64,000 nucleotides of DNA from Asanoa ishikariensis (lineage in GTDB: Bacteria > Actinomycetota > Actinomycetes > Mycobacteriales > Micromonosporaceae), in assembly GCF_900107455.1 (NCBI RefSeq), contig NZ_FNQB01000001.1:1240001-1304000 (forward strand). The letters run 5' to 3'. Of the stretch, positions 49,321 to 50,694 are shown in pieces. The position numbers and the translations under genes were made by a program. Numbering within the stretch: position 1 is the stretch's first letter; each line of letters begins with the position of its first letter. A model generated the notes under the pieces. It saw only the letters and a program-made list of their open reading frames with translations. It had not been told where the DNA came from and did not search any database.

Positions 49321-50694
49321 ATGGAGGCGCTGGTCCAGCTCGACCACTCGCGGCCGGGACTCGGCGAGCAGCTCACGGCCGCACTGCGGGCCGCGATCGC
49401 CGACGGCCGGCTGGCGCCCGGTGCGCGGCTGCCGTCCAGCCGCCAGTTCGCCGCGGACCTGAGAGTGTCCCGAGGTGTGGTGGTCACGGCTTACGAGCAG
49501 TTGGTCGCCGAGGGCCGGCTGATCTCGCAGCAGGGCTCGAAAACGACTGTCGCTTGCTCTGCACCCATCTACGCACCACCCGCTGTCGGGGGTGTTGCGT
49601 ATATGGGTGCAGAGCAAAGCCTGCCGATTGACCTGCGCCCGGGCACCCCTGACCTGGCCGCTTTCCCGCGAGCGGCCTGGCGCCGTGCCTACGAGCGGGT
49701 GCTGGCCACCGCGACCGCGGCCGACCTCGGCTACACCGACGCCATCGGTGCGCCCCGGGTCCGGCAGACGTTGGCCGACTACCTGGGCCGGGTCCGCGCC
49801 GCCCGGGTCACCGCCGACGACGTGGTCGTCACCACCGGCGCCGCGCAGGCCTTCGCGTTGGTCGCGCACCACCTGCGCCAGGCCGGCGCGGTCCGGTTCG
49901 GCGTCGAGGAACCCGGCAGCCCGAGCATCCGGGCCCACATGACGGCGCACGGGCTGCGGCTGGTGCCGATCGCGGTCGACGAAGACGGCCTCGACGTGGC
50001 GGCGTTGCGGGCCAGCGACGTCCAGGCCGTCATGGTCACGCCGGCGCACCAGTACCCGACCGGGGTCGTGCTGGCCCCGCACCGGCGCGCGGAGTTGATC
50101 GCGTGGGCCCGGGAGACGGGTGGACTCATCGTCGAGGACGACTACGACGCCGAGTTCCGCTACGACCGCGACCCGGTCGGCTGCCTGCAAGGGCTCGCGC
50201 CGGACGTGGTCGCGCACCTCGGCTCGGCCAGCAAGGCACTGGCGCCGGCGCTGCGGCTCGGCTGGCTCTGCCCGCCGCGGGACCGCCGACGTGCGGTGCA
50301 CGCCGCCAAGGACGCGGCCGACCACGGTGGACCGGCGCTGGAGCAGCTCGCCTTCGCGGACCTGCTCGCGACCGGCGCGTACGACCGCCACCTGAGACAC
50401 GGCCGGCGGGCCTACCGCCGGCGCCGGGACGCCCTCGTCGCAGCGCTCGCCGCCTACCTGCCGCAGTGCCGGGTGCACGGCGTCGCCGCGGGCCTGCACC
50501 TGGTCGTCGAGCTGCCGCCGGGCACGGACGACGCCGCGCTGGCCGCGAAGGCACACGCCGCGGGCCTCGGCCCGGTGCCACTGAGCGCGACCCGGCTCGC
50601 ACCGGGCGGCCCGCCGGGTCTGGTCATCGGCTACGCCAGCCAGCCGCCGGACCGGATCGCCGCGAGCGTTTACCGGCTGAGCGAGCTGATCTGA
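49321..50694 (+). CDS. MocR/PdxR-type regulator (GntR wHTH fused to aminotransferase fold)
   Basis: This 457-residue PLP-dependent regulator has a GntR winged helix (about 1-75; LGEQLTAALRAAIADGRLAPG, LPSSRQFAADLRVSRG) and an aminotransferase I-like domain: VTPAHQYPTG, EDDYDAEFRYD and the PLP lysine in GSASKALAPALRLGW (about 306). Between them, residues 78-100 are encoded by a 69-nt palindrome inserted in frame (described separately). ATG 49321 has GGGGAGA five bases upstream. It probably controls the divergent EamA transporter in response to PLP or an amino compound. Confidence 0.93.
   Translation: MEALVQLDHSRPGLGEQLTAALRAAIADGRLAPGARLPSSRQFAADLRVSRGVVVTAYEQLVAEGRLISQQGSKTTVACSAPIYAPPAVGGVAYMGAEQSLPIDLRPGTPDLAAFPRAAWRRAYERVLATATAADLGYTDAIGAPRVRQTLADYLGRVRAARVTADDVVVTTGAAQAFALVAHHLRQAGAVRFGVEEPGSPSIRAHMTAHGLRLVPIAVDEDGLDVAALRASDVQAVMVTPAHQYPTGVVLAPHRRAELIAWARETGGLIVEDDYDAEFRYDRDPVGCLQGLAPDVVAHLGSASKALAPALRLGWLCPPRDRRRAVHAAKDAADHGGPALEQLAFADLLATGAYDRHLRHGRRAYRRRRDALVAALAAYLPQCRVHGVAAGLHLVVELPPGTDDAALAAKAHAAGLGPVPLSATRLAPGGPPGLVIGYASQPPDRIAASVYRLSELI
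49552..49620 (+). repeat. 69-nt near-perfect palindrome inserted in frame in the MocR gene
   Basis: Bases 49554-49581 pair with 49590-49617 at 26 of 28 positions (mismatches at 49569/49602 and 49576/49595) around an 8-nt loop. The arms begin TTGCTCTGCACCCAT and end ATGGGTGCAGAGCAA. The full unit, including the outer GC, is 69 nt, exactly 23 codons in the host frame, and encodes a neutral linker peptide (ACSAPIYAPP... to ...YMGAEQS). Codons here are less GC-rich at third positions than in the flanks. It looks like a dispersed palindromic element. Confidence 0.85.

Follow-up and report, generated by a model that had tools for sequence, protein, structure and literature searches.

An in-frame palindrome in an Asanoa MocR regulator: a probable member of a dispersed Micromonosporaceae hairpin family

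The window analysed here, a 64,000-nt stretch of the Asanoa ishikariensis genome, encodes a MocR/PdxR-like regulator with a palindrome translated in frame between its two domains. This palindrome is probably one member of a dispersed family of Micromonosporaceae palindromes, inserted in frame in the MocR gene at about the age of the genus, kept as a hairpin since, and with arms homogenised in trans. Under this scenario a REP/RPE-like dispersed palindrome was fixed as a linker peptide while its hairpin is still maintained. The protein frame is kept open through such an insert in two genes, each in five of the six Asanoa species.

Results

The palindrome and its host gene

The features of the regulator are as follows.

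49321..50694, + strand: host gene, MocR/PdxR-like regulator, 457 aa from the ATG at 49321 (longest open reading frame from 49207)
49363..49551, + strand: GntR winged-helix domain, residues 15-77 (Pfam)
49552..49620, + strand: in-frame palindromic element, 69 nt or 23 codons, residues 78-100
49554..49581, + strand: left arm, 28 nt, pairing with the right arm at 26 of 28 positions
49556..49615, + strand: 60-nt family core (GCTC...GAGC), of this length in 83 of the 98 Asanoa copies analysed
49582..49589, + strand: loop GCTGTCGG, 8 nt, read directly
49590..49617, + strand: right arm, 28 nt
49672..50523, + strand: aminotransferase-like domain Aminotran_1_2, residues 118-401 (Pfam)

The host protein matches the NCBIfam model PLP_TF_PdxR at 381 bits (cut-off 320), and 7pq9 and GabR are among its relatives with solved structures. 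As the Pfam match to GntR ends at residue 77 and that to Aminotran_1_2 begins at residue 118, the insert sits between both domains, the linker position that the initial annotation had proposed. The arms, loop and reading frame it described were likewise recovered, although the codon-boundary edges of the 69-nt unit are partly a matter of choice given the 60-nt core of most copies. The third-position GC content, said to be lower in the element, is 0.478 there against 0.926 in the remaining gene. As RNA, the element is predicted to fold at -51.5 kcal/mol, where shuffled sequences average -22.9 (z -10.5), and none of 200 shuffles folded as well; with 18 copies in the genome, this led us to reject a chance palindrome. 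No Rfam family reached its gathering score for the element, the best sub-threshold match being 21.5 bits against 36.8.

A dispersed family

Searching the window genome (G000; 9.09 Mb in 11 contigs) with the arm pattern gave 35 matches and a reversed-pattern control none. Of its 18 element copies, 17 show both arms by pattern, while the remaining one, at C2:2230138, is shortened and was detected on both strands. A covariance model, for which 35 copies were used, detects the element in all six Asanoa genomes compared (G000 and five others, G001-G005). With E-values of at most 1e-6 it does so in 152 of 354 Micromonosporaceae genomes from 14 of 44 genera; no more than 14 candidates were scored per genome, and the E-values are rough. 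In the wider class, which served as a control for the model, 7 of 394 genomes had matches, five of them from one other family (f34) with a sister version (L329-L333) whose ends are TTTGCAATG and whose inner box is likewise TACGCA. The Micromonosporaceae consensus consists of an outer box TTTGCTCTGC and an inner box around TACGCA within the 60-nt core; relatives outside Asanoa retain TTTGCTCTGC at the ends, and their interior varies yet still pairs. Among the matches listed are at least 80 loci: 19 in Asanoa, 58 in Micromonospora, Catellatospora and Rhizocola, and three beyond the family, which we take for chance. Long perfect palindromes, GGTGCTCTGCACCCA..TGGGTGCAGAGCACC, were also met by pattern in Actibacterium of the Paracoccaceae (L117, L129), and their ends are unlike those of this family.

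No phage or plasmid matched the element at E up to 0.01 and no viral contig matched its exact pattern, and a phage, plasmid or viral vehicle was accordingly rejected. The literature, searched at the level of titles and listings, gave no description of this palindrome family, and the literal arm sequence led to works unrelated by title.

For the Asanoa genomes 98 copies were analysed, 11 of 109 fuzzy matches having been left out as non-palindromic. They are part of an expected total of about 163, half of the 326 two-strand matches, with G002 sampled least completely (17 of about 54 copies). By our own ORF calling with a codon score, 47 of the 98 lie between tandem genes, 31 between convergent and 11 between divergent genes, and nine lie within ORFs: five in MocR, three in an oxidoreductase gene, and a ninth that is doubtful. 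A copy at G002 C1:3846791, although placed in an ORF by the calling, was not counted as a third intragenic case, the coding scores of its flanks being low and its G004 counterpart intergenic. Outside Asanoa, the 58 loci among the matches listed include 23 between convergent, 17 between tandem and 7 between divergent genes, 10 too near an end, and one in an ORF; the last (L145, about 3426, Micromonospora arida), read as CSAPAEATVSQPGRRLDGCRA, was placed there by the codon-score ORF call alone. This placement between genes is REP-like. The dispersed actinobacterial palindrome that the initial annotation suspected thus exists, with further copies in its own genome and across the family, mostly intergenic.

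Some surroundings of the copies recur. Among the 98 copies, 34 have CCTG and 14 have GAACA outside the element ends, compared with 12 and 2 for positions 100 nt away; in Asanoa loci these make up a weak motif pointing outward, AAAGCCTG..CGAACA. Some copies directly follow a terminator-like hairpin, and a role of the element as a transcription terminator is a hypothetical further reading. Tandem arrays of two to three different subtypes, spaced by about 76-87 nt, occur in G002 (L255 and L258, C1:1607109-1607326 and 3452223-3452450) and in G004 (L209, C1:3082134-3082270), and in two Catellatospora loci (L139 and L141, near 6152 and 5967) one element is nested between the outer arms of another. 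In G002 no convincing master gene was called in the interval C1:7040342-7041473, which is flanked by copies.

Age and inheritance of the insertion sites

The MocR orthologues of the six Asanoa genomes share both flanks of the insert, with identities of 81-93%. Of 24 stem pairs, the hairpin keeps 22 in G000, 24 each in G002, G003 and G005, and 21 in G001. In G004 it is eroded to a recognisable remnant, AAPSGPPAAAAGAYVGAEPT, the only one of the six orthologues in which this has happened. Outside Asanoa, 37 genomes had matches and 24 orthologues were examined, in all of which the MocR linker, itself of variable length in these genera, is without the insert. By this comparison of sequences, the MocR insertion predates the split of the known Asanoa species. 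The proposal that the palindrome was domesticated as a linker gains support from the same comparison, with the insert in frame in five Asanoa species and absent from the 24 orthologues of other genera. Of the two outcomes that the initial annotation had named as contrary to its proposal, erosion in every orthologue and a lack of similar DNA elsewhere, neither was observed. Given the eroded G004 copy and the 21 of 24 pairs in G001, the hairpin is dispensable.

A second gene, for an oxidoreductase related to Gfo/Idh/MocA, carries a stable in-frame hairpin in G001, G002, G003, G004 and G005 and is without it in G000. As the site is common to the other five, the simplest reading is that the element was lost from the G000 gene. 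The G002 insert (L302) makes that gene 141 nt longer than the empty G000 gene; its centre is enlarged and the frame is open. Another loss is seen in G003, at the site of G000 C4:609048. No clean empty site or target duplication marking a new insertion was found in the Asanoa comparison, and 10 of the 17 copies analysed in the window genome have orthologous copies matching on both flanks; hence the family looks mostly inherited within Asanoa.

Arm types and paired changes

The arms of each genome tend towards one type. The four bases at positions 8-11 of the arm core are ACCC in G000 (33 of 34 arms), G003 (29 of 30) and G005 (27 of 30), AGCC in G004 (40 of 42) and mostly ATCC in G001 (16 of 26), with G002 heterogeneous (ACCC in 26 of 34). 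When 60-nt cores were compared with non-orthologues of the same two genomes over 41 orthologous pairs, which are not independent of one another, the arms carried no orthologue signal (mean z -0.07, s.e. 0.16) while the loops did (z -0.64, s.e. 0.16). Between G000 and G003, for example, the mean loop distance is 2.20 for orthologues and 5.30 for non-orthologues. The coding copies, like the others, follow the arm type of their species: the MocR peptide reads AYMGAEQ in G000 and G003 and AYLDAEQ in G001; in the oxidoreductase, G004 has YMAAEQ and G001 has YLDAEQ. A counter-example is G000 C2:850889, where G000, G003 and G001 have the same AGCC/ACCC mismatch between the arms, so that arm correction is not always quick.

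Changes in one arm tend to be accompanied by changes in the other. Orthologue groups were limited to pairs with both flanks matching and to one copy per tandem array. Across 16 orthologous loci, 54 species pairs and 1296 stem positions there were 146 two-sided changes, 56 in the left arm only and 52 in the right arm only, and for 126 of the two-sided ones each of the two species has a standard pair. Permuting the right-arm changes within columns gave a mean of 83.7 two-sided changes and a maximum of 101 in 2000 permutations. With one pair per locus, 45 were observed against a permuted mean of 25.7 and maximum of 35. For MocR alone (10 pairs) the excess is weak, with 25 two-sided against 22 one-sided changes, a permuted mean of 17.0 and a permuted maximum of 25, equal to the number observed. 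At one locus kept outside these statistics, G000 C2:1769305 and its G003 counterpart share an identical 14-nt loop, and a C-G pair of the G000 stem is T-A in G003.

The excess of two-sided changes over the permuted expectation is the pattern that template switching between arms would leave. The loop centres are less clear: over the 41 pairs, 4 are inverted (at three loci, one in the oxidoreductase gene), 16 are direct, and 21 are without clear orientation. All inverted pairs have a single, recurrent type of centre, and centres no more than three changes apart also occur in 166 of the 2841 cross-genome pairs of non-orthologues. Since like centres are this common in non-orthologues, replacement by a similar copy could mimic inversion, and the inversions are suggestive only.

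Discussion

It is possible that the MocR copy was kept by selection for its mRNA hairpin, or for its peptide, alone, as a cis-regulatory RNA whose cause is unrelated to the other copies. The initial annotation had offered, as its alternative, a putative RNA hairpin that would tune expression of the host gene. Consistent with that hypothesis, the fold is very stable and compensated changes are seen within MocR. However, the permutation for MocR alone is weak, the same compensated pattern is shared by copies between genes and by another, unrelated gene, G004 keeps the MocR gene without the hairpin, and no Rfam family was recognised at gathering score. Given these points, we regard such selection as an unlikely sole cause.

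The near-perfect inverted arms and the nested Catellatospora copies might instead point to a MITE, in which the arms would be the terminal inverted repeats of an insertion sequence with these ends. Against this, no lone arm was found among the 18 loci in G000. In addition, among 63 copies with full TTT..AAA ends, examined for two-base repeats, 41 share a flanking dinucleotide and every one of these is self-complementary (GC/CG), with none otherwise; the dinucleotides outside TTT..AAA thus extend the palindrome and are not a target duplication. A MITE with an autonomous partner was rejected as none was found in G000, leaving this origin improbable.

A REP element moved by a RAYT (a Y1/HUH transposase), as in enterobacteria and pseudomonads, would also be dispersed, palindromic, mostly downstream of genes and clustered in places. 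Yet Y1_Tnp matches just once among the Asanoa genomes compared (L266, G000 C6:310197-310409); this match is partial with a stop inside, and the partner is absent from the other five genomes. In the 354 family genomes, with those holding weak copies only scored as element-negative, 46 have the element and Y1, 106 the element only, 55 Y1 only and 147 neither (p 0.55). Nor are the tags enriched: of the 98 copies, 7 have GTAG and 20 have CGTC no more than 20 nt from an end, against 13 and 29 when the test is shifted by 100 nt. RAYT-driven movement was rejected on these grounds and is very improbable. If the element had inserted time and again at a small number of hot spots, so that shared sites were not inherited, the resemblance of each species' arms to those of its other copies would be accounted for; this is scarcely credible, as the loops keep locus identity, G000 C2:1769305 and its G003 counterpart combine identical loops with paired arm changes, and G004 MocR holds an eroded remnant.

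The probable history of the MocR palindrome, as a member of a dispersed, mostly inherited family with arms homogenised in trans, is as follows. The comparison of orthologues shows that the in-frame entry of a copy into the MocR linker precedes the separation of the known Asanoa species. Since then this copy would have been read as a linker peptide, tolerated by the protein. Unlike a fossil, the MocR copy seems to be still kept as a hairpin. The symmetry within a copy may be restored by template switching between its arms, to which the two-sided arm changes and the apparent loop inversions at three loci point, perhaps together with selection for pairing. The arm types differ by species at fixed sites across the genome, a pattern that may reflect genome-wide homogenisation. 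As template switching within one copy cannot make dispersed copies alike, something is likely to act in trans, either a putative factor that recognises the arms or ectopic conversion limited to them. A more specific version, which we put forward tentatively as possible but doubtful, is a RAYT-free hairpin system with a putative trans factor of species-changing specificity, in which about twenty copies, coding ones included, would be rewritten in both arms at inherited sites while the loops drift, the amino acids of the host proteins changing as a by-product.

In free-living actinobacteria, and without sign of the usual transposase, two in-frame sites have thus been held for about the age of the genus with the hairpin mostly intact. 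The family may offer a testable case of concerted evolution in a short bacterial repeat, with arms that change jointly in each species and loops that stay partly specific to their locus. It may equally be a testable case of proteins in which the need to maintain a hairpin, of DNA or RNA, determines residues in place of the function of the protein.

The classical examples of palindromes inserted in frame come from Rickettsia and from REPs. New here are the family-wide scale, the in-frame copy in a second gene, and the way in which the arms evolve where sites are inherited. Like the Rickettsia palindromic elements (RPEs), the Asanoa element belongs to a set of dispersed palindromes found in frame within unrelated protein genes, and the initial annotation had drawn this parallel. 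Intragenic RPE and REP inserts code for 20-30 residues (PMC3733652), and the element here, of similar coding length, is likened to them by placement and size. However, RPEs are described as losing the identity of their repeats with time (PMC6649704), whereas the MocR copies keep 21-24 of 24 pairs in five of six Asanoa species. The parallel therefore holds for in-frame insertion and fails for decay, the hairpins here mostly not decaying.

Intragenic REPs and RPEs have been described (PMC3733652), as has a preference for tandem and convergent gene pairs. REP, BIME and REPIN elements with RAYTs are palindromes present in many copies, mostly in the spaces between tandem or convergent genes, at times arrayed and at times inside genes (PMC3733652), as in Asanoa. 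The present family differs in the lack of a GTAG/CGTC tag and of an association with Y1, in its longer, near-perfect stems, and in species-wide arm replacement at inherited sites. In Nematomorpha mitochondria, coding palindromes with arms that change together have been described and template switching proposed (PMC6649704); the arms here differ in belonging to a dispersed bacterial family and in being alike between copies too. Arm homogenisation and spacer inversion are given as signatures of template switching in PMC8604942 and PMC8794818. Template-switch hairpins differ in that the process acts within one palindrome, and it does not alone explain the sameness of the dispersed copies in Asanoa.
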